In this document: positions 3,057 to 14,020 of the stretch, one piece after another | Layout: every line of letters starts with the position of its first letter | How positions within the stretch are numbered: the first letter of the stretch is position 1 | Assembly (NCBI GenBank): GCA_019116585.1 | Contig: DXBJ01000041.1 | Location: 1-48,143, forward strand | Origin: Candidatus Faecalibacterium gallistercoris | GTDB lineage: Bacteria > Bacillota > Clostridia > Oscillospirales > Ruminococcaceae | Reading direction: 5' to 3' | DNA: 48,143 nucleotides | Program-made: the position numbers and the translations under genes | The notes under the pieces: model-generated | Seen by the model: only the letters and a program-made list of their open reading frames with translations | Databases searched by the model: none | What the model was told of the DNA's origin: nothing

Positions 3057-3815
3057 TCAAAAAGGATGCAGCGCGACGCCGGCCGCCGGCAGAGCGGCCC
3101 GCAGCCTGCGGACAAAGCGCAGGGCCTTGGGCTGGTCGCCGTGGACGCAGACCGAGTCCGCCTGCAGCGGGATCACCGTGCCGTCGCAGGCGGGGACGGC
3201 GCCCTCCTGCACCATCCGCAGCACCCGGGCGATCGCTTGGTTCTCGTCCTCAATCAGGGACCCCGGCTCCCCCCGGGGCACCAGGGCGCCGTCCGGGCGG
3301 TAGCCCCGGTCGGCAAAGACCTCGCAGGCCACAGGCAGGCCGATGGCCCGGGCCGCCGCCACCATTTCGCTGCCCGACAGGGCCAGCAGCACCGCCCCGG
3401 GGGCGGCCGCCTGCACCGCCCGACAGATCGCGTCCGCCAGAGGGCGGTCCCGGGCCGCCATGTTGTACAGCGCCCCGTGGGGCTTGACGTGGTGCAGGGG
3501 CACGCCCGCTTCCCGGCAGAAGGCCTGCAGCGCCCCGACCTGATAGGCCACACAGTCGGCGGCCTCCGCCGGAGCGATCTGCATCCTCCGGCGGCCAAAG
3601 CCGGCCAGGTCGGGCAGGCCAGGGTGGGCCCCCACCTGCACCCCATACTTTTGGCACAGCAGGACGCTGCGGTGCATGACCGTGGGGTCCCCGGCGTGGT
3701 AGCCGCAGGCGATGTTGGCCGAGGTGATGTAGGGGATGACCTCCTCGTCGTTGCCGATGGTGTAAGCGCCAAAGCTCTCCCCCAGGTCGCAGTTGAGATC
3801 GATGGACCAAAGCAT
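3057..3815 (-). CDS. pxpA: 5-oxoprolinase subunit A (LamB/YcsF family)
   Basis: At 252 residues this is full length for the LamB/YcsF family. Hallmarks are present in order: DLNCDLGESFG near the start, NIACGYHAGDP, GAHPGLPDLAGFGRR, HVKPHGALYN, EVFADRGYRPDGALVPR and CVHGDQPKAL. With PxpB and PxpC it forms the prokaryotic ATP-dependent 5-oxoprolinase, which opens 5-oxoproline (pyroglutamate) to glutamate in the cytoplasm. AAGGAGGG precedes the ATG. It is last in the block pxpB-pxpC-DUF1445-pxpA, so all three subunits are encoded here, separated only by the DUF1445 gene. B. subtilis has a similar kipI-kipA-ycsI-ycsF neighbourhood. Confidence 0.95.
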   Translation of the reverse strand: MLWSIDLNCDLGESFGAYTIGNDEEVIPYITSANIACGYHAGDPTVMHRSVLLCQKYGVQVGAHPGLPDLAGFGRRRMQIAPAEAADCVAYQVGALQAFCREAGVPLHHVKPHGALYNMAARDRPLADAICRAVQAAAPGAVLLALSGSEMVAAARAIGLPVACEVFADRGYRPDGALVPRGEPGSLIEDENQAIARVLRMVQEGAVPACDGTVIPLQADSVCVHGDQPKALRFVRRLRAALPAAGVALHPF

Positions 3816-3831
3816 AGGGAACTCCCTCCTT

Positions 3832-4635
3832 TCACAGCCGGAGCGCGGCGTTGGTCACGTCGGTGATGAACATATGCCCCGGTGCGTGGGTGATGCAGAA
3901 GTCCGGCCGGGAGGCCATGACCGCCGCCTGGGGCGTGACGCCGCAGGGCCAGAACACCGGCACCTCGCCGGGGCGGATGGTCACGGCGTCCCCGTAGTCG
4001 GGGTGCGCCAGGTCCCGGATGCCAATGGCCTCCGGGAAACCGATCTGCACCGGCATGCCGTGGACCCGGGGCATCCCCGCGGTGACGGCCACCGCGGCAG
4101 GCACCAGGCGGTGCGGGATGGGCCGCATGCTCACCACCAGGTTGCCGTGAAAGATCCCCGCCGGGGCGCAGGGGATGCTGGTGTTGTACATGGGCACGTT
4201 GACCCCCTCCTCGATCTGGCGCACCGGGATGCCGGCCTCCAGCAGCGCACTCTCAAACGAGAAGCTGCACCCGATCAGAAAACTGACCAGGTCCGGGCGC
4301 GCGTCGAAGAGGTCGGAGACGTTGACAGGTTCATCCGTCAGTTTCCCTTTGATATAGACCCGGTAGCGGGGCAGGTCGGCGGCAATGTCGCTGCCCGGCG
4401 CGGACCGGGCGAAGGTGCGGCTGCCGGCGTCCGCCACTTCCAGCAGGGGGCAGGCTTTGGGGTTGCGCTGGCAGAACAGCAGAAAGTCCCAGGCCAGGGC
4501 TTTGGGCAGCACCACCAGGTTCCCCTGGGCATAGCCGGGGCACAGGCCGGTGGTGGGGCCGCTGAATTCGCCCCGCCGGATGAGGCTGCGGACCGCGGCG
4601 GGAGACAGGGAAGCCAGAGCGGATCGGTCGTTCAA
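3832..4635 (-). CDS. DUF1445 (YcsI-like) putative hydro-lyase / D-glutamate cyclase N-terminal-type protein
   Basis: A 267-residue protein with the family signatures PGYAQGNLVVLPKALAWDF, FCQRNPKACPLLEV, LPRYRVYIKGKL, CGVTPQAAV and ITHAPGHMFITD. DUF1445 is related to B. subtilis YcsI and, importantly, to the N-terminal domain of vertebrate D-glutamate cyclase (DGLUCY), which turns D-glutamate into 5-oxo-D-proline. The C-terminal domain of DGLUCY is DUF4392, encoded here four genes upstream. The start is TTG, chosen because AAAGGAG, embedded in the 3' end of pxpC, lies 9 bases before it. It sits between pxpC and pxpA. The family call is secure; the cyclase role is inferred from the human enzyme and from context. 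Confidence 0.9.
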   Translation of the reverse strand: MNDRSALASLSPAAVRSLIRRGEFSGPTTGLCPGYAQGNLVVLPKALAWDFLLFCQRNPKACPLLEVADAGSRTFARSAPGSDIAADLPRYRVYIKGKLTDEPVNVSDLFDARPDLVSFLIGCSFSFESALLEAGIPVRQIEEGVNVPMYNTSIPCAPAGIFHGNLVVSMRPIPHRLVPAAVAVTAGMPRVHGMPVQIGFPEAIGIRDLAHPDYGDAVTIRPGEVPVFWPCGVTPQAAVMASRPDFCITHAPGHMFITDVTNAALRL

Positions 4636-4641
4636 ATCGGG

Positions 4642-5655
4642 TCACTCCTTTCGGATGGGGTCCAGCCGCGCCCGCACCTGCTGCAGGCAGGCGGCCTGCG
4701 CGCGTGCGGCCGCAACGGCGCTGGCAGGGTCGGTCAGGGTAAAGGCCACCTCCTGCCCCGGGCGCAGTTGGGCCAGGGCCGGCAGGTCGGCGCCGATGAC
4801 CGTGGCGATCTTGGCATAGCCGCCGGTGGATTGATGGTCGGCCAGCATGACCATGGGCTGTCCGCTGCCGGACACCTGCACCGAGCCGCTGACGATGCCG
4901 TCCGAGAGGATGTCTGCCCCGGCCGCCGTCTCGATGGCGGGGCCCTGCAGCTTGCAGGCCATCCGGCTGCAATCCGATGTCAAGCGGTACACGCCGTGGG
5001 TGAAGGCCTGCTGCCCGGCCGGCGTAAAAGCCTGCCACTGGGGGCCGGGCACCGCCCGCAGCAGAGGGATCTGCCGGCCGCCGGTCCAGCGCCACAGCCG
5101 GTGGCCCCGGCGGGCGGCCGCATCCTCCAGGGGGCGGTCTGCCCGCAGCGAACGGATCTTTTTCCACCAGAGGGCGGCCAGGCTGCCGCGCTCCGTCAGG
5201 GGCAGCAGGTCGCCGGCTTTCAGGGCCCGGCCTTCCAGCCCGCCCAGGCGGCAGGCCAGGTCGGTGGACCGGCTGCCCTGCACCGGGGGCACGGCCAGGC
5301 CGCCCCAGACGGCCAGATAGCTGCGCAGCCCCTCTTGGGCGGCGCCCACCGCCAGCACACTGCCGGTTTGGGCGTACAGCGGGGCATAAAACGGGACCGG
5401 CTTGCCGTCCAGCACGGCGGGCGCTTCGGCCCCGGTCAGGGCGAACACGGCGGCGTGGGCAAACTGCAGCTGGGGCCCCTGCACGGTGGTCTCCAGCACC
5501 GCCGCGCCGGGGGCGTTGCCCACCAGCAGATTGGCCAGGCGGGCGGCGTAGGGGTCGGCCGCGCCGCAGCAGCGGTAGCCTTCGGCGGCGTGGCCGGCGC
5601 GGCCCAGATCCTGCACGGTGGTCAGGGGGCCGGCGGTCAGGACACGGATGCTCAT
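4642..5655 (-). CDS. pxpC: 5-oxoprolinase subunit C (biotin-dependent carboxyltransferase fold, KipA-like)
   Basis: A 337-residue AHS2/KipA-family protein beginning MSIRVLTAGPLTTVQDLGR, with TGAEAP, the GSRSTDL segment and the conserved LADHQSTGGYAKIATVIG near residue 280. PxpC pairs with PxpB as the carboxyltransferase-like half of 5-oxoprolinase. The open frame continues far upstream, but the true start is ATG at 5655: it overlaps the pxpB stop in an ATGA junction and homology begins there. The next gene follows after 6 bases and its ribosome binding site is inside this gene's end. Confidence 0.95.
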   Translation of the reverse strand: MSIRVLTAGPLTTVQDLGRAGHAAEGYRCCGAADPYAARLANLLVGNAPGAAVLETTVQGPQLQFAHAAVFALTGAEAPAVLDGKPVPFYAPLYAQTGSVLAVGAAQEGLRSYLAVWGGLAVPPVQGSRSTDLACRLGGLEGRALKAGDLLPLTERGSLAALWWKKIRSLRADRPLEDAAARRGHRLWRWTGGRQIPLLRAVPGPQWQAFTPAGQQAFTHGVYRLTSDCSRMACKLQGPAIETAAGADILSDGIVSGSVQVSGSGQPMVMLADHQSTGGYAKIATVIGADLPALAQLRPGQEVAFTLTDPASAVAAARAQAACLQQVRARLDPIRKE

Positions 5656-6338
5656 GCCGTCCCCTCCTTTGCGGCCAGCCGGGCAAACTGCTCCGGCGTG
5701 ATGGAAACGAAACGGATGCGGTCCCCGGCGGCGTAAAGAGGCGGCCGGTCCGGGGCGAACAGCCGCAGCGGGGTGCGGCCGATCAGCTGCCAGCCTCCCG
5801 GCGAAGCGACGGGATACACCCCCGTCTGCTCCCCGCCGATGCCCACCGACCCGGCGGGGATGGAGGTGCGGGGATTTTGCAGCCGCGGGATGAACAGGGC
5901 CGGGTCCAGCCCGCCCAGATACGGGAACCCCGGCAGAAAGCCCACCATATAAATGCGGTATTCCGGGGCGGTGTGCCGGCGGACGACCTCCTGCGGCGCG
6001 AGGCCGGCGTGCCGCGCCACCAGGGCCAGGTCGGGCCCAAACGCGCCCCCATAGCAGACGGGGATGGTCACCAGACGGCCGGCGTCGGCGGAGGCGGGGG
6101 CCAACCCTTCGGCCAGGGACGAGACGGCCTGCGCCACACGGTCGTAATCGGTTTGCAGGGGATCGTAGCGGATCAGCAGCGAAGCGAAGGCGGGCACCGT
6201 TTCCCCCAGGCCGGGGAGCCCTGCCGCCCGGACCGCGGCGTCCAGCGCAAAGACCTGTGCGCTGACCTCTTCCGAGATCTCCTGCCGGAACACCGCCAGC
6301 ACGCCGCTGTCCCCCACCGGGAAAAGTGAAACAGACAA
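5652..6338 (-). CDS. pxpB: 5-oxoprolinase subunit B (KipI-like)
   Basis: A 228-residue AHS1/KipI-family protein with the expected FPVGDSGVLAVF start, YMVGFLPGFPYLGGLDP, IPAGSVGIGGEQTGVYP and SPGGWQLIGRTPLRLF motifs. In B. subtilis the homologue KipI was first described as a KinA inhibitor; the enzymatic role is as a PxpABC subunit. The start is TTG with AGGAGGG seven bases upstream. It follows the DUF4392 gene after about 20 bases and overlaps pxpC by 4 bases, so PxpB and PxpC are coupled, as expected for subunits of one complex. Confidence 0.95.
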   Translation of the reverse strand: MSVSLFPVGDSGVLAVFRQEISEEVSAQVFALDAAVRAAGLPGLGETVPAFASLLIRYDPLQTDYDRVAQAVSSLAEGLAPASADAGRLVTIPVCYGGAFGPDLALVARHAGLAPQEVVRRHTAPEYRIYMVGFLPGFPYLGGLDPALFIPRLQNPRTSIPAGSVGIGGEQTGVYPVASPGGWQLIGRTPLRLFAPDRPPLYAAGDRIRFVSITPEQFARLAAKEGTA

Positions 6339-6358
6339 AGACGTCCCTCCTTTCGGCG

Positions 6359-7429
6359 TCAGCTGCGGTCAAAAAAGCCCTTGGCCAGCACCGGACCAAA
6401 CCAGCGCTCGCTCTCGTGGGAGCGGTGGATGGCATAGCCGGTGCATTGGCGCATCAGGCTGACCACCCCCACGTTCATCCGGGTGTCAAAGCCGTCCACC
6501 CCCGGCAGCAGCGAGCCGGTCATGTCGATCATCCCGTTGCGGGACAGCACCCGCATCACCTCGCTCTCCATTTCCTCCCGGTGCAGGATGTTCATATCCT
6601 TTTTCAGGTAGGCCAGGGCCGCCATCAGGGCGTAGCAGCCCCAGTCGGAGCAGGTGGCGGTGATGACGTTGTCGGCGGTGGTGGCGCTGAGGATCCCGCC
6701 GCCGCAGCCGCAGCGGCACTCGCCCCCGGCGGTAAAGGGGACGTAGCGCCGGATGTGGGGGCCGATGGCCCCCATCCCGATCTCGTTGCCCAGATCCCCG
6801 ATGGCGATGCTGAGGACGCCCCGGGCCCGCAGAGCCGTCCACAGCACGTCGCTCTTGGCCTGCAGGGCGCTGACGTCGTCGCCCATGGCGTTGTGATAGA
6901 CGCCCCGGGCGTTGGCGCCGCAGGCCTCGACGGCGACGGCGGCGGCCGGCGGGCAGGCGTCCAGGAGCCGGCGGGCCTGCTCCGCCGCATCTGCCCGGTC
7001 TTTGGTAAAGGGCACGATGCCCACGCTCAGGGGCAGGCGCAGGGCCGCAGCCAGGTCCTGGTAACTGTGCAGCCCCACCACGTTGGCGCAGCGGCTGAAC
7101 GCCTCCACGCTGTCCGGCGGACAGACGATCACCGGCTTTGCGTCAAAAGCCAGCACCAGGGCCCGCGCCAGCAGGATGGCGCTGACCGAGCCGTCCATCT
7201 CGGGCACCTGATGGGGCAGCAACACGAACCCCACCAGGATATACACCACGCCGCCCCGCTCCACCCGCCTGCAGAGGGCCTCGGCGGCGTGCATGGCCAC
7301 AGGCTCTCCGGCAAAAGCCCGGGCCCCCGCATACAGGATGCGGCAGACCCCGTAGCCCCGGGGGTCCAGGGTCATCAGCGCGTCCAGATTTTCGCCTACA
7401 TTGCGGCGTTCCAGTTCATCCCGTGTCAT
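6359..7429 (-). CDS. DUF4392 protein, D-glutamate cyclase C-terminal-type
   Basis: A 356-residue protein of the DUF4392 family. Recognisable parts are the N-terminal LERRNVGENLDALMTLDPRG, a central EACGANARGVYHNAMG, SIAIGDLGNEIGMG near residue 220 and a glycine/cysteine-rich GGECRCGCGGGI that could bind metal. DUF4392 forms the C-terminal half of vertebrate D-glutamate cyclase, whose N-terminal half (DUF1445) is encoded three genes downstream. In this organism the cyclase therefore appears split in two, with pxpB and pxpC in between. The ATG at 7429 is chosen over an upstream TTG because GAGGGGG lies 6 bases before it; this leaves an 11-base gap after the aminotransferase stop. Confidence 0.88.
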   Translation of the reverse strand: MTRDELERRNVGENLDALMTLDPRGYGVCRILYAGARAFAGEPVAMHAAEALCRRVERGGVVYILVGFVLLPHQVPEMDGSVSAILLARALVLAFDAKPVIVCPPDSVEAFSRCANVVGLHSYQDLAAALRLPLSVGIVPFTKDRADAAEQARRLLDACPPAAAVAVEACGANARGVYHNAMGDDVSALQAKSDVLWTALRARGVLSIAIGDLGNEIGMGAIGPHIRRYVPFTAGGECRCGCGGGILSATTADNVITATCSDWGCYALMAALAYLKKDMNILHREEMESEVMRVLSRNGMIDMTGSLLPGVDGFDTRMNVGVVSLMRQCTGYAIHRSHESERWFGPVLAKGFFDRS

Positions 7430-7440
7430 GGCAGGCCCCC

Positions 7441-8304
7441 TCAATCCAGCACCGACGTCTTGCCGGTGGCATCGTAATATTCCTGCAGCACGGCGTCCTG
7501 GATGGCCTTGAGGGCGGCAGGGTCTTTGCCGCCGGCGGGCCTGCCGTCCAGCTCGCAGGCGTGCAGGCAGAAGTTGGAGGAGGACGAGACGATGATCTCG
7601 TCCGCGTCCGCCAGCTGGGCCAGGGTGAAGGGTTTTTCCATCACCTGGATGCCCAGCCGGTAACAGGCCTGGATCATGTGGGTCTTGGCGATGCCCCGCA
7701 GGATCAGCTCGTCATTGGGGTGGGAGTAGAACACCCCGTCTTTCAGGATGGATACGTTGGAGTGGGCGCACTCGGTGACGATGCCGTCCCGGTGGAACAC
7801 CGTCTCGTCTGCGCCGCAGCGCCGGGCCTCCTGGGCCGCCATCACGCTGGGCAGCAGGTTGAGGGTCTTGATGTTGCAGTGGTAAAAGCGGGTGTCCGGC
7901 CGGGTCACCAGCCGGATGGGCTGGTCGGGGTCCCGCAGGTGGTTGGGGCGGATCATCACCCACAGCTTGCCGGCCATGTCCTCGGCGTAGGTGTGGTCGC
8001 GGTTGGCGGCCCCCCGGGTGACCTGCCAGTAGACGAACTGGGTGGAGCCTTCCACCTTGGCCAGCAGCCGGGTCAACAGGGCCCCCAGCTCGGCTTTTTC
8101 CATCGGGATGTGGATGTCCAGCGCCCGGGCGCTGGTGTAAAAGCGGTCCAGATGGTCCTGCAGCAGGTACACGGTGCCGCACGCCCCCACGGCGGCGTCG
8201 TAGACGCCGTCCCCAAAAAAGTGGACACGGTCGTGGAAGGGGATTTTGACCTCCTCCGGCGTGCCCCAGACGCCGTCGTAGTAAGCAAGCTCATGGAACA
8301 GCAT
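7441..8304 (-). CDS. dat: D-amino-acid aminotransferase (PLP fold type IV)
   Basis: A 287-residue class IV aminotransferase. The PLP-binding lysine is K146 in NIKTLNLLPSV, close to the D-amino-acid transaminase pattern IK(S/T)LNLL. The conserved Glu follows in GIVTECAHSNVSI (residue 178). FGDGVYDA at 30-37 is also typical. D-amino-acid aminotransferases exchange the amino group between D-alanine and 2-oxoglutarate, making D-glutamate and pyruvate. The branched-chain and aminodeoxychorismate-lyase relatives are alternatives, but the lysine motif and the neighbours (D-glutamate cyclase halves, 5-oxoprolinase) favour a D-amino-acid role. GGAGAGGAG precedes the ATG. Confidence 0.85.
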   Translation of the reverse strand: MLFHELAYYDGVWGTPEEVKIPFHDRVHFFGDGVYDAAVGACGTVYLLQDHLDRFYTSARALDIHIPMEKAELGALLTRLLAKVEGSTQFVYWQVTRGAANRDHTYAEDMAGKLWVMIRPNHLRDPDQPIRLVTRPDTRFYHCNIKTLNLLPSVMAAQEARRCGADETVFHRDGIVTECAHSNVSILKDGVFYSHPNDELILRGIAKTHMIQACYRLGIQVMEKPFTLAQLADADEIIVSSSSNFCLHACELDGRPAGGKDPAALKAIQDAVLQEYYDATGKTSVLD

Positions 8305-8346: not shown

Positions 8347-8994
8347 TCAGCCCCGGGGCAGCGCCACGCCGAACCGCAGGCAGAGATAGACCTCGATCAG
8401 GGAAACGCAGTTGTCCAGCCCCAGGGCGGCCGTATCCAGGCACAGGTCGTAGTTGGACAGGTCTTTCCACCGCCGGTCTGTATGGTAGGTGTAATAGTCG
8501 TTGCGGTATTTGTCCAGCCGGTCGATGTACCGACGGGCCTCGGCCTGGCTGATGCCCTGGCGCCCCATCTCCCGCCGGATGCGGTCCGGGTAGGGGGCGT
8601 CCAGAAAGACCGAGAGGACCCGGGGCCTGTCCCGCAGCACAAAATCCGCCGCCCGCCCCACGCAGACGTAGCTCTCCTGCTCCAGCAGCTTGCGCAGCAC
8701 CTTGGCCTGATGGGCGAACAGGGCCCGGTCGGAGGTGAAGTTGCCGCTTTCCGGCGGGATGTCCACCCCGTCGTAGACGCTGCGGGAAACTTTGTACAGC
8801 AGGCTGCGGCGGGTGGTTTCGTCCGCCTGGGCAAACAGGGCCTCGTTGATGCCGCTGTCCTCCGAAGCAAGGCGCAGCAGCTTGCGGTCGTAAAAGTCGA
8901 TACCGTAGTCGGCGGCCAGCTTGCGCCCGATGTAGCTTCCGCCGCCGCTGCCGCAGGTGCGGGTGATGGCAATGGCAAAATATCCCTCAGACAT
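8347..8994 (-). CDS. Cytidylate-kinase-like P-loop protein
   Basis: A 215-residue protein of the cytidylate-kinase-like family (Cytidylate_kin2). The nucleotide-binding loop is near residues 13-22 (CGSGGGSYIG). GRAADFVLR at about 115 and FLDAPYPDRIRR at about 130 are also typical, as is the pair of conserved Arg around RRYIDRLDKYRNDYY. It is not the housekeeping CMP kinase, and the substrate of this subfamily is unclear. It sits 12 bases after livF and 42 bases before dat, so it bridges the transporter and the enzymes. Whether it phosphorylates a nucleotide or senses one is unknown. Confidence 0.85.
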   Translation of the reverse strand: MSEGYFAIAITRTCGSGGGSYIGRKLAADYGIDFYDRKLLRLASEDSGINEALFAQADETTRRSLLYKVSRSVYDGVDIPPESGNFTSDRALFAHQAKVLRKLLEQESYVCVGRAADFVLRDRPRVLSVFLDAPYPDRIRREMGRQGISQAEARRYIDRLDKYRNDYYTYHTDRRWKDLSNYDLCLDTAALGLDNCVSLIEVYLCLRFGVALPRG

Positions 8995-9006: not shown

Positions 9007-9705
9007 TCACTGGCCCAAATAGGCTTTTTTGACCCGGGCGTCGTCCAGCAGGGCCCGGGCGTCCCCCGACAGGGTGATGTGGCCGGTCTCCAGCACATAG
9101 GCCCGGCTGGAGATGGAAAGGGCCATCTGGGCGTTCTGCTCCACCAGCAGGATGGTGATGCCCTGGCGGTTGATCTCCTGGATGATGGCAAAGATCTCCT
9201 GCACCAGCAGGGGGGACAGGCCCATGGAGGGCTCGTCCATCAGGATCATTTTGGGCCTGGACATCAGGGCCCGGCCCACCGCCAGCATCTGCTGCTCGCC
9301 GCCCGACAGGGTGCCCGCCAGCTGGCGGCGGCGCTCTTTCAGGCGGGGGAAGCGGACGTATACCTCCTGCATGACGGACTCCATCCCGTCCGGATCGGCG
9401 TAAGCCCCCATTTCCAGGTTTTCTTCCACCGTCATCTCGGGGAAGATATGCCGGCCTTCCGGTACATGGGCCAGCTTCAGGCCGATGATCCGGCTGGGCA
9501 CCGTCCGGCGCAGATCGTGGCCGTCAAAGGTGATGCTGCCGGCCGAAGCGGCCTCCAGCCCGCTGATGGTGCGCAGGGCGGTGGTCTTGCCGGCGCCGTT
9601 GGCCCCGATCAGGGAGACGATCTCGCCGTCCTTCACCGTCAGCGAGATGCCGTCCAGCGCCTGCACGGCGCCGTAGCTGACCTTCAGGTCCTTCACTTCA
9701 AGCAT
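9007..9705 (-). CDS. livF: Branched-chain-amino-acid-type ABC transporter ATPase
   Basis: A 232-residue LivF-type ATPase with Walker A GANGAGKTT near residue 37, signature LSGGEQQML near 135, Walker B LILMDEPS near 157 and the LivF-specific C-terminal GHITLSGDARALL. It energises uptake together with LivG. The start is ATG at 9705, overlapping the livG end by 8 bases, with AAAGGAGG upstream; longer frames read into livG and are spurious. The family carries leucine, isoleucine and valine, but also amides, urea and other amino acids, so substrate cannot be read from the ATPase. Confidence 0.93.
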   Translation of the reverse strand: MLEVKDLKVSYGAVQALDGISLTVKDGEIVSLIGANGAGKTTALRTISGLEAASAGSITFDGHDLRRTVPSRIIGLKLAHVPEGRHIFPEMTVEENLEMGAYADPDGMESVMQEVYVRFPRLKERRRQLAGTLSGGEQQMLAVGRALMSRPKMILMDEPSMGLSPLLVQEIFAIIQEINRQGITILLVEQNAQMALSISSRAYVLETGHITLSGDARALLDDARVKKAYLGQ

Positions 9706-10501
9706 GGTCCTGCGCCTCCTTTGTCTGCCTGCCCAGATAGGCTTCGATGACCCGCGGGTCGTTGGCGATCTGCTGGGGGGTGCCTGCCGCAATGGTGGTG
9801 CCAAAGTCCAGCACCTGGATCCGCTGGCAGATCTTCATGACCAGGCTCATGTCGTGCTCGATCAGCAATACCGAAATGCCGAACCGGGTGCGGATGCAGT
9901 CGATGATCTTCAGCAGCTCCTCGGTCTCGGTGGGGTTCATGCCGGCGGCCGGCTCGTCCAGCAGCAATAACTTCATATCGGTGGCCAGAGCCCGGGCGAT
10001 CTCCAGCCGCCGCTGCTGGCCATAGGGCAGGTTGTCCGCTTCCAGGTCCTCCTTGCCCGCCAGGTGGACCACCTCCAGCAGCTCTTTGGCCCGGGCGGTG
10101 ACGGCGGCTTCCTGTTCCCAATAGGCCCGGGTGCGGAGGATGGCCTGGGGCAGGCCGTATGTGAGCTGGTCCAGCATGGCGGCCTTGACGTTCTCGATGA
10201 CCGACATCTTTTTGAACAGCCGGATGTTCTGGAAGGTGCGGGCGATGCCCGCATGGACGATCTGGTGGGTCTTTTTGCCGTTCATCCGCTGGCCGCACAG
10301 ATAGAAGGAGCCTTCGGTGGGGCGGTAGACCCCGGTGATCAGGTTGAACACGGTGGTCTTGCCGGCGCCGTTGGGGCCGATCAGCCCCACCAGCTCGGAT
10401 TCCCCGATCTCGATGCTGAAGTCGTCCACCGCCTTCAGGCCATTGAACTGGATGCCCAGATTCTGCGCTTTCAGGACGGGGGTCTTTTTGTCGGCAGTCA
10501 T
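9698..10501 (-). CDS. livG: Branched-chain-amino-acid-type ABC transporter ATPase
   Basis: A 267-residue LivG-type ATPase with Walker A GPNGAGKTTVFN near 40, the family-specific GIARTFQNIRLF near 90, signature-region LPYGQQRRLEIARAL near 160, Walker B LLLDEPAAGMNP and the switch histidine in LLIEHDMSLV. It follows the livM C-terminal fragment after 3 bases and overlaps livF. It would hydrolyse ATP at the cytoplasmic face of the permease pair LivH/LivM. Confidence 0.93.
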   Translation of the reverse strand: MTADKKTPVLKAQNLGIQFNGLKAVDDFSIEIGESELVGLIGPNGAGKTTVFNLITGVYRPTEGSFYLCGQRMNGKKTHQIVHAGIARTFQNIRLFKKMSVIENVKAAMLDQLTYGLPQAILRTRAYWEQEAAVTARAKELLEVVHLAGKEDLEADNLPYGQQRRLEIARALATDMKLLLLDEPAAGMNPTETEELLKIIDCIRTRFGISVLLIEHDMSLVMKICQRIQVLDFGTTIAAGTPQQIANDPRVIEAYLGRQTKEAQDHA

Positions 10502-10504
10502 AGG

Positions 10505-10897
10505 TCACACCCCTTTCTCCGGGACGGCGCCGGCTTTGGGCGCGCCGCCGCGGGGCTTGCCGGCGCCGGCCAGCAGGCGGCTGAGGGAGAACTCCCAGCG
10601 GCCGAAGATGCCGCCCGGACGGAACAGCATGACCAGCACCAGCACCACCGAGTAGCCCAGCATCCGGTAGGTGGAGAACTGGCGCATCAGCTCGGGCAGG
10701 GCCGAGAGGAAGGCCGCCCCGATGATGGAGCCGGTGAGGGAGCCGGTGCCGCCGATGATGACTTCGCTGAGCAGCTCGGCGGAATAGTTGAAATCGAAGT
10801 TGGTGGGGATCATGGCCGTCATGTAGTGGGCGTAAATGGCGCCGCCGATCCCCGCGAAAAAGGAGGACACCGCAAAGGTGAGCACTTTATAAAACAT
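10505..10897 (-). pseudogene. livM: livM C-terminal fragment, separated by frameshift
   Basis: These 130 residues are the last third of a LivM permease: FYKVLTFAVSSFFAGIGGAIYAH, GGTGSLTGSIIGAAF and VLVLVMLFRPGGIFG, with about three membrane segments and a charged tail. It begins inside the duplicated heptamer at 10889-10902, whose second unit supplies an ATG that overlaps the TAA ending the N-terminal part. There is no ribosome binding site of its own, so any synthesis would need re-initiation after the TAA. Removing one heptamer would join it in frame to the upstream part and give an ordinary LivM of about 340 residues. Confidence 0.88.
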
Positions 10898-11528
10898 AAA
10901 ACGTGACGTTGATGCCCGAGGCCTCGGCCGCGATGTAATCCTCCCGGATGGCCTGCACCGTGCGCCCGAACTTGCTGCGGACGAACAGGAACATCACCGC
11001 CACACAGGCGACCATGATCCAGAAGGTGCGGCCAAAGGTGGACAGTTTGAGGATGCCGCTCATGGTGCGGCCCCCGCCGGTGATCGCAAAGTTGCAGAAG
11101 GCCACCCGGATGATCTCGGCAAAGGCCATGGTGACAATGGCCAGATAGTCCCCCCGCAGGCGCAGGGCGGGGATGCCCACCAGCACGCCGGCCAGGCCGG
11201 CCATCACCCCGCCGGCCAGCACCGCCACCAGCAGCAGGGCCAGATCGGACAGGCCCCGCCCGGCCAGCGCGCTGGACACAATGGCGGAGGTATAGGCACC
11301 CACCGACACAAAGCCCGCATGGCCGAGGGAGAACTCCCCCATAAAGCCCACCACCAGATTGAGGGAGGCCACCATGATGATGGTGTAGCAGGCGGTGGTG
11401 CACACCCCTTCCACGTAGGTGGTGGAACGTCCAAAGCCGTTGCAGGCGAACAGAGCGCTCAAAACCAGAAAGAGCGCCAGGACGCCGGCGGCGTTCAACA
11501 GGTAACTGAATGCGCGTTTTTGGGTCAT
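10887..11528 (-). pseudogene. livM: livM N-terminal fragment, truncated by frameshift
   Basis: These 213 residues are the first two thirds of a LivM-type permease: N-terminal membrane segments, LNLVVGFMGEFSLGHAGFVSVGAY, ALRLRGDYLAIVTMAFAEIIR, and finally GRTVQAIREDYIAAEASGIN, normally followed by a TFYKVL-type junction and more membrane helices. Here translation reads into a stop after three more residues because of a 7-bp tandem duplication. The start is ATG at 11528 with GAGGAGG 8 bases upstream. Without the C-terminal helices the permease should not work as is, unless both parts associate or the lesion reverts. Confidence 0.9.
10889..10902. repeat. 7-bp tandem duplication in livM
   Basis: On the plus strand ATAAAAC occurs twice head to tail (10889-10895 and 10896-10902). 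One copy would give the family-typical Thr-Phe-Tyr-Lys-Val junction; two copies shift the frame and create both the TAA stop and the overlapping ATG. This fits slipped-strand mispairing and could revert by the same route. Confidence 0.9.
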
Positions 11529-11541
11529 GCCGCACACCTCC

Positions 11542-12432
11542 TCATACTTTCTCGCCGACGCTGCGGCCCAGGATGCCCGAAGGCTTGACCAGAAGGATCA
11601 CGATCAGGGTGCCATAGGTGACGGCCTCGTACCACCCGGGGGCGAACAGGCGGACAAACACCTCGATCAGGCCGATCAGGATGCCGCCCAGCATGGCGCC
11701 GGGGATGACCCCGATGCCCCCCAGCACCGCCGCGATGAACGCTTTCATCCCCATGGTGGTGCCCATATCGTTGGTGACCCGGGGGTAGGTGGTACAGTAC
11801 ATCAGAGCGGCCACCGCCGCCAGGGCCGACCCGATGGCGAAGGTGATGGTGATGATGTGGTTGACGTGGATGCCCATCAGGGTGGAGGCGTCCCGGTCCT
11901 GCGGGACCGCGCGCATGGCTTTGCCCAGGCGGGTGTTCTTGACAAACAGCTGCAGGGCCAGCATGATGGCAAGACCGATGACGATGGTCAGCACCACGTT
12001 CAAAGAGACGGTGACCCCGGCCACCGTCACCGACGGCAGGGAGAAAATGCCCGAGACATTGTGGGGGCGGGAGCCGAACAGCACCATGGCCAGGTTCTGC
12101 AGGAAGATGCTCATGGCCAGGGCGGTGATGAGGGCGGACATGGGGCCGGCCTTGCGCACCGGACGGTAGGCAAAGGTCTCCACCAGGATCCCCACCAGGG
12201 CGCAGACGGCCACCGCCGCAAACACCGCCAGCCAGGCGGGCATGCCGGCCTGCACCATCAGGGGCACGGTGTAAAACAGGGTGTAGGCGCCGATCATGAT
12301 AAAGTCGCCGTGGGCAAAGTTGATCATCCGGATGATGCCGTAGACCATGGTATAGCCTAGGGCGATCAGGGAGTAGGTGGCGCCCAGGTTCAGGCCGTTG
12401 ATCAGAGATTGAAAAAACAGCGAAAAGCTCAT
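11542..12432 (-). CDS. livH: Branched-chain-amino-acid-type ABC permease
   Basis: A 296-residue LivH-type permease with the family start INGLNLGATYSLIALGYTMVYGIIRMINFAHGD, the EAA-like loop GKAMRAVPQDRDASTLMGI near 190 and the MGMKAFIAAVLGGIGVIPGAMLGGILIGLIE block near 240; roughly eight membrane segments. The ATG at 12432 has AAAGGAG 6-7 bases upstream; longer frames run into the leader and are not used. It should form the channel with LivM. It lies behind an intercistronic hairpin that probably lowers its expression relative to the binding protein. Confidence 0.93.
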   Translation of the reverse strand: MSFSLFFQSLINGLNLGATYSLIALGYTMVYGIIRMINFAHGDFIMIGAYTLFYTVPLMVQAGMPAWLAVFAAVAVCALVGILVETFAYRPVRKAGPMSALITALAMSIFLQNLAMVLFGSRPHNVSGIFSLPSVTVAGVTVSLNVVLTIVIGLAIMLALQLFVKNTRLGKAMRAVPQDRDASTLMGIHVNHIITITFAIGSALAAVAALMYCTTYPRVTNDMGTTMGMKAFIAAVLGGIGVIPGAMLGGILIGLIEVFVRLFAPGWYEAVTYGTLIVILLVKPSGILGRSVGEKV

Positions 12433-12477
12433 GGAATTCTCCTTTCGGCAATGGGAAGCGCTCCTTGCAGGCCGCCC

Positions 12478-12532
12478 AAAAAGCAGCGGCACACAGCCGG
12501 AACCCAAAGCGTCTTTGCCGGCTGCGTGCCGC
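12478..12532 (-). terminator. Intercistronic terminator between livK and livH
   Basis: On the minus strand arms 12532-12518 and 12500-12486 pair over 15 positions with one G-T pair, followed within a few bases by five T (plus-strand A at 12478-12482). It sits between the binding-protein gene and the permease gene. Such partial terminators commonly let the solute-binding protein be made in excess over the membrane parts. Confidence 0.75.
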
Positions 12533-12579: not shown

Positions 12580-13848
12580 TCAGCCTTCCCGGCTGGCCAC
12601 CACTTCGCCGTCAGGGCCCAGGGTCTCGAACCACTGCACCTGGCCGTCCACAAACGTATTGAAAACGATCTGCTTGGCGGGGTCGCCATTCTCGTCCAGG
12701 GTGAAGGTGCCGCCCACGCCGGTGAAGGTCATGCCGGTCATCCCCTCGACCAGGCTGGCGGTGTCGGTGCCGCCGCCCTCCTGGGCCGCCTGGTAGATCA
12801 TATAAATGGCGTCGTAGTACAGCGAGGCGCAGGCGTTCAGGCTTTCGGTGCCGTAGAGCTCGGTGTATTTGGTGACGAAGTTGACCACCGCCTCCGAGGT
12901 GTCCTCGCTGGAATAGTGGTTGGTGAAATAGCAGTTTTCAAACTGCGCTTCCAGGCCGGTGGTGTCCGAGCTGTCCCAGCCGTCGCCGCCCATGATGGCC
13001 CCGGTAAAGCCGGCGCTGCGGGCCTGGCTGACCAGCAGCGGCACCGTATCCTGGAAGCAGGGGTAATAGAGGCACTCGGCCCCCGACGCCGCCACCTGGG
13101 ACACCTGGGACGAAAAATCGGTGTCGGTGGTGGTGCACTGGCCCTCGTAGGCCACCGTGATCCCGCTTGCCTCGCAGTTTTCGATGAAGGCGTCCTTCAG
13201 GCCGTTGGAGTAGTCGTCATCGTTGGCGTAGAGGACGGCCACGCTGCCATAGCCCTGGCTCTGGACAAACAGCGCCGCCATCCTGCCCTGATAGGGGTCG
13301 ATGAAGCAGTCGCGGAACACGGTGGGGCGGTCGATGGTCACATCCACGTTGGTGGCGCCGGTGGCCACCAGAAGCATATCGTCCACGGCGGCCTGCTGGG
13401 CAATGGGCAGGGTGACGGTGGAGAAAAAGCTGCCCACCAGCGCTTCGGGCCCGTCGGCCATCACCAGGTTATAGGCGTTCATGGCCTGGCGGGCGTCCTG
13501 GGCATCGTCGGCGATCTGGCCGCCGTTGACGATCTCGATGGAATACGGTCCGCCGCTGCTGTTCAGCTCCTCCACGGCCATGTCCACCGCGTTCTGCGCG
13601 CCCTCGCCGTAAATGGCCGAGCCGCCCGTCATGGGGCCGATGACGCCGATGCGGATGACGCCGTCCTCCGCGGCCGCCGCCGAAGAAGCGGCTGCGCTTC
13701 CGGCAGACGATGCGGCAGAGCTGGACGCCGTGCCGCCGGTCTGCTGAGCGCTGGACGAGCAGCCGCCCAGAACTGCGGCGCCCACAGCGACCGAGCCGGC
13801 CACAGCACCGGCTTTGAGAAAACTGCGTCGGGAAATGCGCTTTTTCAT
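12580..13848 (-). CDS. livK: Solute-binding lipoprotein of the Liv-type ABC transporter
   Basis: A 422-residue periplasmic-binding-protein-like lipoprotein (Periplas_BP_6 type). The N terminus has a twin-arginine motif (RRSFLKAG, residues 7-14), then a hydrophobic stretch and lipobox LGGC with Cys30 as the lipidated residue, followed by a Ser/Ala-rich linker. The mature part starts IRIGVIGPMTGGSAIYGEGAQNA, the typical opening of this family. It should be anchored outside the membrane and pass ligand to LivH/LivM. Ligand is not readable; the operon suggests a D-amino acid, 5-oxoproline or related compound rather than necessarily leucine. The ATG has AAGGAGG upstream. Confidence 0.92.
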   Translation of the reverse strand: MKKRISRRSFLKAGAVAGSVAVGAAVLGGCSSSAQQTGGTASSSAASSAGSAAASSAAAAEDGVIRIGVIGPMTGGSAIYGEGAQNAVDMAVEELNSSGGPYSIEIVNGGQIADDAQDARQAMNAYNLVMADGPEALVGSFFSTVTLPIAQQAAVDDMLLVATGATNVDVTIDRPTVFRDCFIDPYQGRMAALFVQSQGYGSVAVLYANDDDYSNGLKDAFIENCEASGITVAYEGQCTTTDTDFSSQVSQVAASGAECLYYPCFQDTVPLLVSQARSAGFTGAIMGGDGWDSSDTTGLEAQFENCYFTNHYSSEDTSEAVVNFVTKYTELYGTESLNACASLYYDAIYMIYQAAQEGGGTDTASLVEGMTGMTFTGVGGTFTLDENGDPAKQIVFNTFVDGQVQWFETLGPDGEVVASREG

Positions 13849-13896
13849 GATGTGCCTCCTTGGGTTTGCTTCTTGCTCGATCATCTTTTTCCTGCT

Positions 13897-13924
13897 GCAA
13901 AAGGAAGAAAAGGCGCGCAGCGCC
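13897..13924 (-). promoter_or_regulatory. Second terminator-like hairpin in the liv leader
   Basis: A 5-bp GC stem (13912-13916 with 13920-13924, 3-base loop) followed on the minus strand by a pyrimidine/T-rich run toward 13897. It lies between the first leader hairpin and livK. Alone it is short; in tandem with the upstream one it suggests attenuation of the operon. Confidence 0.45.
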
Positions 13925-13984
13925 TGATTCCAGGACTGCACGCCTTTGTGTAGCTTGCGGCATGATAAAGCCGGGCCAAAACAG

Positions 13985-14020
13985 AAAAAGGAGCCGCATA
14001 CCATCCTGGCAGGCGACTCC
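13985..14020 (-). promoter_or_regulatory. Terminator-like hairpin in the liv operon leader (attenuator candidate)
   Basis: Minus-strand arms 14020-14013 and 13997-13990 pair over 8 positions with one T-G pair; the loop can form a further 4-bp stem, and five T follow directly (13989-13985). It ends about 65 bases after the predicted transcription start and 137 bases before livK, so it would stop transcription unless something prevents it. I recognise no named riboswitch or T-box in it. Confidence 0.6.

Follow-up and report, generated by a model that had tools for sequence, protein, structure and literature searches.

The operon and its gene products

The window, a 48,143-nucleotide stretch of DNA from Candidatus Faecalibacterium gallistercoris, carries six intact open reading frames on its minus strand, which run from 8304 to 3057 in the order dat, DUF4392, pxpB, pxpC, DUF1445 and pxpA. 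In the direction of transcription the intergenic spacings are -4, 20, -4, 6 and 16 bp, most of the starts have a purine-rich site resembling a ribosome-binding site upstream, and the Pfam matches of all six products far exceed the curated cut-offs; the adjacency of the six genes claimed in the original prediction is borne out. The true start of DUF4392 is probably the ATG at 7429, in which case the first spacing would change from -4 to +11 bp.

The first gene (dat, 7441..8304) encodes a class IV aminotransferase that matches Aminotran_4 with 131 bits and has D-amino-acid transaminase as its best match. Residues Y31, R98, H100, K145 and E177 of the Bacillus D-amino-acid transaminase are identical in the window's protein (Y35, R102, H104, K146 and E178); we take K145, E177 and the carboxylate-trap residues Y31, R98 and H100 to have catalytic roles. 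The name Dat is likely correct, but the score of 203 bits for the best NCBIfam model, TIGR01121, lies under the trusted cut-off of 277.

The DUF4392 protein (6359..7444; PF14336 'GLUCM-like_C', 271 bits, cut-off 27.9) belongs to a long subtype of about 360 amino acids with a C-x-C-x-C insert. Each of the six acidic residues that bind metal in TON_0340 is retained (as E82, D84, E173, D217, E221 and D317), as it is in 36 of 36 aligned DUF4392 proteins, and the predicted structure (pLDDT 95.7) matches TON_0340 with a TM score of 0.90 by target length and 0.67 by query length. The one activity found in the literature for a lone DUF4392 protein, TON_0340, is that of a weak Mn-dependent phosphatase, best on AMP (PMC5132392). 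A classical subtype, 22-26% identical to the window's long subtype, differs from it at conserved positions 174, 218, 267 and partly 83; because conserved positions have changed, three of them adjoining metal ligands, the substrate of the long subtype may differ from that of the classical one.

All three PxpABC families are encoded in the operon, with DUF1445 separating pxpA from pxpBC. The products of pxpB (5652..6338, TTG start) and pxpC (4642..5655) match CT_C_D with 257 bits and CT_A_B with 288 bits, and score above the cut-offs of TIGR00370 (210.7 bits, cut-off 145.6) and TIGR00724 (276 bits, cut-off 230), respectively; against the equivalog NF045499 the PxpC product reaches 249 bits, under the cut-off of 500. 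The pxpA product (3057..3815) matches LamB_YcsF with 349 bits and the subfamily model NF003814 with 367 bits (cut-off 226), and is under the cut-offs of all three PxpA equivalog models. The DUF1445 protein (3832..4635, TTG start) matches PF07286 'D-Glu_cyclase' over 143 of 143 positions (231 bits, cut-off 25), and also NF003969 'putative hydro-lyase' with 397 bits, above the cut-off of 324.

The transcription unit probably begins ahead of dat: further minus-strand genes lie upstream of it, and no gap in the series up to dat exceeds 72 bp. They are a livK-type substrate-binding protein (12580..14004), a livH-type permease (11542..12507), a livM-type permease (10505..11537), a livG-type ABC ATPase (9698..10501; at most 86% identical to its counterpart in named relatives), a livF-type ABC ATPase (9007..9705, ATG start at 9705) and a Cytidylate_kin2 family gene (8347..8994). 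The livH, livF and livK assignments are profile matches, and the Cytidylate_kin2 assignment is from Pfam. The livM gene is divided between two open reading frames in different frames (10887-11537 and 10505-10897), and is a single frame in relatives (351 amino acids in L068, 358 in L093). The Cytidylate_kin2 gene has a conserved place, after the transporter genes and before dat, and is present in 27 of 80 named loci; the order of liv genes, Cytidylate_kin2 and dat is retained in many relatives. The same genome also encodes a glutamate racemase.

Recurrence of the gene set

The neighborhood was surveyed in 80 named loci that share the window's long DUF4392 subtype. For 50 of them, 5.5 kb or more of flanking sequence is available to the left and to the right, and all five partners (dat, DUF1445, pxpA, pxpB and pxpC) are present at 42 of these 50, in varied gene orders. 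An alanine racemase gene is found in 22 of the 80 loci; in L073 it is about 8 kb off and on the opposite strand. Most of the gene set recurs in Gammaproteobacteria, where Pseudoalteromonas plasmids carry consecutive genes for GH3, DUF1445, PxpA, DUF4392 and a class IV aminotransferase (Dat); no PxpB or PxpC is annotated in the Pseudoalteromonas stretches read.

DUF4392 and DUF1445 also co-occur at the level of genomes. DUF1445 was found in 10 of 11 DUF4392 genomes versus 9 of 280 others in a 291-genome panel (Fisher test, 1e-12), and in 9 of 12 versus 6 of 188 in a 200-genome Lachnospiraceae panel (9e-10); chance association is excluded by these counts, the tests themselves ignoring shared ancestry. 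The two genes are unlinked in five of the ten genomes with both in the first panel and in two of nine in the second. The original prediction would have been refuted by a lack of co-occurrence elsewhere; instead the pair is found together far above chance, whether linked or not. DUF4392 without DUF1445 is limited to 1 of 11 and 3 of 12 panel genomes, and one of the latter three (G355) is cut inside DUF1445 by a contig end; G155 and G373 are panel genomes with DUF4392 and without DUF1445. No match to DUF1445, PxpA or Dat was obtained in the DUF4392-bearing Clostridia genomes of L055, L057 and L095 (that of L056 being left out), and PF14336 has no match in any of 14 control genomes. The gene set is real, recurrent and widely conserved; it and its recurrence are observed directly, as are the co-occurrence, the domain identities and the conservation of the metal ligands.

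Probable consecutive steps and the question of handedness

The original prediction described a D-glutamate cyclase split between two genes. The pairing of the two proteins is upheld by their co-occurrence, but the idea that they are subunits of one enzyme fares less well. At panel DUF1445 loci, dat is present at 10 of 12 with linked DUF4392 and at 1 of 21 without it, whereas pxpA occurs at 12 of the 21 DUF4392-free loci; DUF1445 adjoins pxpABC even where DUF4392 and dat are both absent, often together with an NRAMP gene. Moreover, one DUF1445 clade (SH-aLRT 99) partners both the window's long DUF4392 subtype and the classical one. Because Dat tracks DUF4392 while DUF1445 tracks pxpABC without either, and because one DUF1445 clade serves two distant DUF4392 subtypes, DUF4392 and DUF1445 are most likely consecutive enzymes rather than the subunits of a co-adapted heterodimer. 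Nor does the word split fit if it implies fission: no DUF1445-DUF4392 fusion frame was found in 123 stretches scanned, the window included, and the fusion is known from animals, from fish on (PMC5132392). Bacteria normally encode the two in separate genes, and the fusion is vertebrate.

Our preferred reading, for which we judge the case about evenly balanced, is a conserved D-amino-acid recycling operon of two modules, with DUF4392 and DUF1445 in consecutive steps; its reactions and their order, the transported substrate, and the place or occurrence of a stereocenter inversion are what we infer, and the chemistry and handedness of the steps are predictions. In the first module (dat and DUF4392, at times with alanine racemase), Dat would exchange D-alanine and D-glutamate, and DUF4392, as an enzyme that has a Mn site and folds like TON_0340, would convert D-glutamate to 5-oxoproline. 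In the second (DUF1445 and PxpABC), DUF1445 would pass 5-oxoproline on in a form that PxpABC accepts, and PxpABC would open the ring with ATP to give glutamate. D-alanine and D-glutamate from peptidoglycan or the gut lumen would be the likely sources, imported by the Liv-type transporter.

The claim of a complete route back to glutamate is weakened. If the D-configuration were kept throughout, conversion of D-glutamate to 5-oxo-D-proline and on to glutamate would be futile, spending ATP only to remake D-glutamate. For net conversion, the stereocenter must be inverted at some step, PxpABC must be unusual, or the operon must run in another direction. DUF1445, with its invariant cysteines, is a candidate for the inverting enzyme. 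In an alignment of 13 diverse DUF1445 proteins, one of them divergent, C62, C123, C231, H192 and H250 do not vary. In cofactor-independent two-cysteine racemases, two invariant cysteines face each other in the active site. Yet the fold of DUF1445 is unlike that of known racemases; the Foldseek matches to DUF1445 in the PDB are 2pif and 3db9 only, followed by the NrpR-like MJ0159 (3nek) at TM 0.38-0.45, and include no known two-cysteine racemase fold. We tentatively raise the possibility that DUF1445 acts on 5-oxoproline as a racemase (or isomerase) and, with DUF4392 as D-glutamate cyclase and an L-specific PxpABC, would form an ATP-driven, effectively one-way inversion of D-glutamate to L-glutamate. 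Against the preferred two-module reading, a route from D-glutamate to L-glutamate is not required, because the genome has its own glutamate racemase, and DUF1445 with pxpABC and without dat or DUF4392 is common, so that DUF1445 need not concern D-glutamate. The phosphatase activity reported for a lone DUF4392 protein, the genomes that have DUF4392 and lack DUF1445, the altered positions of the long subtype and the missing PxpB and PxpC annotations in the Pseudoalteromonas stretches read count against it as well.

It is also possible, though in our judgment unlikely, that DUF4392 and DUF1445 together make up a single D-glutamate cyclase, each being a subunit needed for the one step from D-glutamate to 5-oxo-D-proline, and that a D-tolerant PxpABC then acts on the product. 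The domains are fused in vertebrates, the mouse protein 9030617O03Rik (DGLUCY), which has both, converts D-glutamate to 5-oxo-D-proline (PMC5339696), and DUF4392 without DUF1445 is rare in the panels. However, DUF1445 is common without DUF4392, a single DUF1445 clade is paired with two distant DUF4392 subtypes, three Clostridia genomes searched have DUF4392 alone, an archaeon has a lone DUF4392 protein while archaea are reported to lack DUF1445 (PMC5132392), and the D-retaining loop would be futile.

A catabolic direction would suit the transporter, Dat and Alr: imported 5-oxoproline, perhaps host-derived 5-oxo-D-proline, a compound that people excrete (PMC5339696), would be opened by PxpABC, Dat would convert D-glutamate and pyruvate to D-alanine and 2-oxoglutarate, and Alr would yield L-alanine, with DUF4392 aiding the opening, e.g., as a glutamyl-phosphate phosphatase, in keeping with the Mn-dependent phosphatase TON_0340 (PMC5132392). 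We think this improbable, since many genomes have pxpABC without DUF4392, and C. glutamicum needs PxpABC for growth on 5-oxo-L-proline (PMC13274462) and manages without DUF4392 (no PF14336 match in the control genomes); a cyclase would oppose the direction, cyclization being thermodynamically favored (Keq about 0.035 for [Glu]/[5-OP]; PMC13274462), and the descriptions of PxpABC found, in the passages cited, concern the L form only. Finally, an ordinary 5-oxo-L-proline scavenging operon might simply lie beside an alanine/Dat unit, DUF4392 being unrelated, e.g., a house-cleaning phosphatase. The activities of the bacterial products are predictions, and classical DUF4392 is also found in different surroundings, at three plasmid loci of Alphaproteobacteria and at six of the seven classical loci that were read in the class panel; but the linkage is strong and repeated over gene orders, Gammaproteobacteria included, and DUF4392 and DUF1445 co-occur even when unlinked, and we think a loose grouping improbable too.

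Significance and comparison with known systems

DUF4392 and DUF1445 are widespread families with solved structures, named for function mainly through one mammalian protein. A conserved bacterial operon in which they are joined by Dat, PxpABC and, at some loci, Alr provides substrate hypotheses for each cyclase half separately, and makes the breakdown of 5-oxo-D-proline and D-glutamate testable by gene deletion. If gut Clostridia run the operon, it would be a candidate microbial sink for D-glutamate and for the 5-oxo-D-proline that people excrete (PMC5339696). Were DUF1445 a 5-oxoproline racemase, the inversion pathway would be distinct from the reversible glutamate racemase, Alr and Dat could drain D-alanine and D-glutamate into central metabolism, and the pairing of DUF1445 with PxpABC in bacteria that lack DUF4392 would be explained, since it would allow them to use 5-oxo-D-proline.

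We take ycsI of B. subtilis to be a DUF1445 gene; PF07286 and PF03746 both match in the B. subtilis control genome. The window's operon resembles the B. subtilis PxpABC operon with ycsI (PMC10448178) in having pxpA, pxpB, pxpC and DUF1445 together. The latter includes the NRAMP gene ycsG according to the same source, whereas the window's operon has no NRAMP gene and adds dat, DUF4392 (absent from B. subtilis) and an upstream Liv-type transporter. The long DUF4392 protein shares the fold and six acidic ligands of the lone Thermococcus protein TON_0340 (4dwz, 4fc5, 5gkx, 5gl2, 5gl3), but is only about 24% identical to it and about 90 residues longer. Like vertebrate DGLUCY, the operon has both PF07286 and PF14336, with the DUF4392 metal ligands conserved, a conservation that extends up to human (PMC5132392). 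Unlike the one-chain vertebrate protein, as it is described, the domains lie here in two genes with pxpB and pxpC in between, and the long DUF4392 has a cysteine-rich insert and is accompanied by dat and pxpABC. The link of the two families to D-glutamate cyclase is not wholly new, being present in the Pfam domain names and in a table row of PMC11580864, which for GLUCM_HUMAN counts no full-length homologues and six split ones in the gut microbiome. The split reported there is of the same kind as the one described here; that row and the passages cited with it give no operon, partner genes or mechanism, whereas here the two genes are placed in an operon with their partners.

The operon and its recurrence

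The six genes named in the original prediction, dat, DUF4392, pxpB, pxpC, DUF1445 and pxpA, are all found in the window, in that order on the minus strand from 8304 to 3057, with Pfam matches far over the cut-off for every one. NCBIfam backs PxpB, as well as PxpA and PxpC at subfamily or domain level; Dat is the best NCBIfam model for the aminotransferase, though its score is under the model's cut-off. The window Dat keeps Y31, R98, H100, K145 and E177 of the Bacillus D-amino-acid aminotransferase, which we take to be the functional residues of that enzyme. In transcription order the core genes are preceded by livK, livH, livM (in two frames), livG, livF and a Cytidylate_kin2 gene, and intergenic gaps from livK through pxpA range from -11 to +72 bp; livF has an ATG start at 9705 on the minus strand and a gap of -8 to livG.

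The surroundings have features of their own. The livM gene (10505-11537) is split into two ORFs that overlap and are read in different frames, 10887-11537 and 10505-10897, the result of either a frameshift or an assembly error; it is a single ORF at two relatives' loci, L068 (351 aa) and L093 (358 aa). Downstream of pxpA by 71 bp begins a stretch (765-2985) with three genes: a circularly permuted ATP-grasp gene, whose match is confined to the C-terminal part of its profile (149-373 of 374); an Alpha-E gene, which covers profile positions 7-164 of 294; and an ORF at 765-1544, a candidate transglutaminase-like gene judged by reading.

A scan for the window's kind of DUF4392, with one genome per species, gave 275 pattern stretches; 222 of these were relatives, of which the best 80 were kept. 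Record names among these best 80 of 222 include Lachnospiraceae, Clostridium, Oscillospiraceae, Selenomonadaceae and Treponema, and the closest named loci by identity are from Gemmiger and Subdoligranulum records. When partner genes were sought by tblastn with the window proteins as queries, these 80 loci yielded dat at 66, DUF1445 at 69, pxpA at 64, pxpB at 69 and pxpC at 65, and alanine racemase at 22. At the 50 of them with at least 5.5 kb on either side, the counts are 44 for dat, 47 for DUF1445 and 46 for each of pxpA, pxpB and pxpC, and all five partners are present at 42. Among the exceptions, dat alone is absent at L048, L049, L091 and L094, pxpABC at L082, DUF1445 and pxpABC at L073, and all five partners at L055 and L095. 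Some missing partners lie elsewhere in the genome: DUF1445 and PxpA for L073, PxpA for L082 and Dat homologues for L049.

Gene order differs between loci (at L078 it is Lrp-dat-DUF4392-DUF1445-pxpA-alr-pxpB-pxpC). The operon is thus real and conserved, and its constant content in variable order points to the gene set as a functional unit. The spread of the two families is patchy, neither being matched in any of the three other genomes of the window's family or the eight of its order in the class panel.

The Cytidylate_kin2 gene (8347-8994 in the window) adjoins Liv-type transporter genes in 27 of the 80 named loci (best 80 of 222), and it stays with the transporter block even when on the opposite strand from dat (L065, L068, L081). 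Doublings occur at L042, where livG-livF-dat is present twice, and at L045, with two Cytidylate_kin2 matches; these may reflect local duplication, repeats in the assembly or split matches.

Two modules within one gene set

The co-occurrence of DUF4392 with DUF1445 expected by the original prediction is borne out in both panels, where 10 of 11 and 9 of 12 DUF4392 genomes hold DUF1445. Among the 291 genomes of the class panel, PF14336 is over the cut-off in 11, PF07286 in 19 and both in 10 (Fisher 1e-12, ignoring shared ancestry; the 10 span eight family codes), and the two genes are unlinked in five of the 10. The Lachnospiraceae panel (200 genomes) has PF14336 in 12, PF07286 in 15 and both in nine (Fisher 9e-10, again ignoring shared ancestry), unlinked in two; three of its DUF4392 genomes have no DUF1445 call, and in one of these, G355, a contig end truncates DUF1445. 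These counts leave out sub-cut-off PF14336 matches in one genome of the class panel (G105) and two of the Lachnospiraceae panel (G436, G493), and score G480 as DUF4392-negative despite a cut copy at a contig end. The dependence is one-sided: DUF1445 occurs without DUF4392 in 9/19 and 6/15 genomes, and DUF4392 seldom without DUF1445.

The DUF1445 loci separate the set further. Of 22 without a linked DUF4392 call, G480 was set aside for its cut DUF4392, leaving 21 (a second DUF1445 match of G382 was left out of the locus set). These 21 have pxpA at 12, an NRAMP match at nine and dat at one, L167, on the strand opposite to DUF1445. By comparison, where a panel DUF1445 locus has DUF4392 linked to it, dat is present at 10 of 12 (Fisher 7e-6, omitting G355 and G480, whose contigs are cut inside the operon), although dat may be overlooked at some loci without DUF4392, which cover 7-14 kb and in part stop at contig ends. 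Plasmid loci without DUF4392 have the same composition: in Lactiplantibacillus and Klebsiella, DUF1445 is accompanied by PxpA, PxpBC, biotin carboxylase and NRAMP, and in Paracoccus by PxpBC, biotin carboxylase and NRAMP, with PxpA unannotated.

From these counts and plasmid loci, dat tracks DUF4392, and DUF1445 tracks pxp. The simplest reading of this pattern is that DUF4392 would act on D-Glu, the product of Dat, and that DUF1445, next to PxpABC, would act on 5-oxoproline. DUF4392 and DUF1445 are separate proteins, as had been proposed, and the way they partition between dat and pxp fits consecutive steps better than the further proposal that they are subunits of one enzyme. No DUF1445-DUF4392 fusion ORF was found in 123 stretches scanned, where the sole core-gene fusions are of PxpB with PxpC (L145 and L146).

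At L066 (15581-17352), L144, L145 and L146 the neighbour of pxpBC, or of a PxpB-PxpC fusion, is biotin carboxylase, and L066 and L144 have a biotin carrier gene as well. This hints at a possible biotin-dependent variant of the 5-oxoprolinase system.

Diversity of DUF4392 and its settings

The window DUF4392 (6359-7444) is of a long subtype with a C-x-C-x-C insert, in which C243 and C247 are invariant among 49 aligned proteins. C245 is nearly invariant in these 49 sequences, and the Cys-rich insert (about residues 243-247), a confident loop in the predicted structure, may form an additional metal or redox site. The model of the long protein (pLDDT 95.7) matches only chains of TON_0340, the lone classical DUF4392 of Thermococcus, with E up to 0.001. 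The classical proteins encoded in such operons share 22-26% identity with the window protein; all six metal ligands are kept in 36 of 36 proteins of both kinds, and positions 174, 218, 267 and partly 83 separate the two. The classical kind is in a dat operon at four of seven Lachnospiraceae classical loci (L122, L123, L124, L127), while in the class panel L020, alone of seven classical loci, has it beside DUF1445-pxpABC, with dat absent.

Among 53 DUF1445 proteins selected for a tree, the Clostridia dat-operon members share one clade (SH-aLRT 99). Both DUF4392 kinds are represented in it, as are three NRAMP loci that lack DUF4392; the L020 protein is outside. The FastTree drawing suggested two independent swaps of DUF4392 subtype within this lineage, a scenario unsupported by AU tests: they rejected neither a single DUF1445 clade of the four classical-type operons (p 0.46) nor one of the long-type operons (p 0.46 in comparison with those four, 0.10 in comparison with all).

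Long DUF4392 lacks partner genes at L055, L056, L057 and L095, although at L056 and L057 the contig stops just past DUF4392. DUF1445, PxpA and Dat were all without a match in the genomes of L055, L057 and L095, which may be incomplete, and these have no MurI over the cut-off (that of L057 has a sub-cut-off match). The class IV aminotransferases at the four loci are of branched-chain type as judged by length, and also by sequence for that of L055 and one of L095's two; L056 and L057 have partial ORFs of the Asp/Glu racemase family. That long DUF4392 stands in for glutamate racemase is unsupported: MurI is found in the window's own genome and in four of five long-DUF4392 genomes of the Lachnospiraceae panel, where 25 of 200 genomes are without a MurI match.

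Outside Bacillota, two of three Pseudoalteromonas plasmid records have consecutive genes for GH3, DUF1445, PxpA, classical DUF4392 and a class IV aminotransferase. PxpA is absent from the gene table of the third, and pxpB/pxpC from those of all three, these tables being incomplete. The aminotransferase, 26% identical to the window Dat, scores best with the D-amino-acid transaminase model, at 247.8 bits (cut-off 277). The best model of GH3 is the beta-N-acetylhexosaminidase PRK05337 (190.9 bits against 207), and GH3 therefore hints, weakly, at a peptidoglycan source. Independent assembly is not claimed: the DUF4392 proteins cluster with the four Lachnospiraceae classical operon proteins (FastTree support 0.85), so that a shared or transferred origin is possible.

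Three alphaproteobacterial plasmid DUF4392 loci (L141, L142, L143) have three different neighbourhoods. In one, the neighbouring protein carries an Asp/Glu racemase family annotation (its best NCBIfam model is EutA, with a score under the cut-off); in another there are Thr/Ser dehydratase and RidA, DUF1445 being about 2 kb off; and in another, alanine racemase together with an ABC transporter for amino acids.

The stereochemical puzzle

The predicted route through 5-oxoproline back to glutamate has a gap in its stereochemistry. Opening of 5-oxoproline by PxpABC consumes ATP, and if the D configuration were kept at every step, the loop would merely burn it. A useful route would therefore need one step to invert the stereocentre, or a PxpABC of unusual specificity running in another direction. 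Glutamate cyclisation is downhill, with a Keq of about 0.035 for [L-Glu]/[5-OP] in PMC13274462, which also has C. glutamicum with pxpTABC growing on 5-oxo-L-proline. In our control panel C. glutamicum is matched by PF03746 and not by PF07286. PxpABC can thus use 5-oxo-L-proline independently of DUF1445, so DUF1445 would add a function where it lies beside PxpABC.

Could that function be inversion? Cofactor-independent racemases feature two cysteines, and 13 diverse DUF1445 proteins, among them a divergent Agrobacterium one, all keep Cys62, Cys123, Cys231, His192 and His250. The cysteines would fit DUF1445 as a candidate inverter of 5-oxo-D-proline, a role we regard as rather doubtful. Against it, the structure search with the DUF1445 model (pLDDT 91.5) found no known racemase fold: the model matched only 2pif and 3db9, plus a weak match to the NrpR-like MJ0159, and its fold is unlike known racemases. 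Also against inversion, PMC5339696 reports that the mouse two-domain protein makes 5-oxo-D-proline and that D-Glu loading in people elevates it.

The operon therefore poses a testable chemical puzzle. Among titles and abstract starts, with partial coverage, no paper was found on the operon of Dat with PxpABC, its conservation or the two-module logic. The domain names, the fusion and the gut split are already known: the Pfam names of PF07286 and PF14336 both derive from D-glutamate cyclase, PMC5132392 notes the vertebrate fusion of DUF1445 and DUF4392 and suggests sequentially linked functions for them, and PMC11580864 gives the human protein, GLUCM_HUMAN, as split in gut bacteria.
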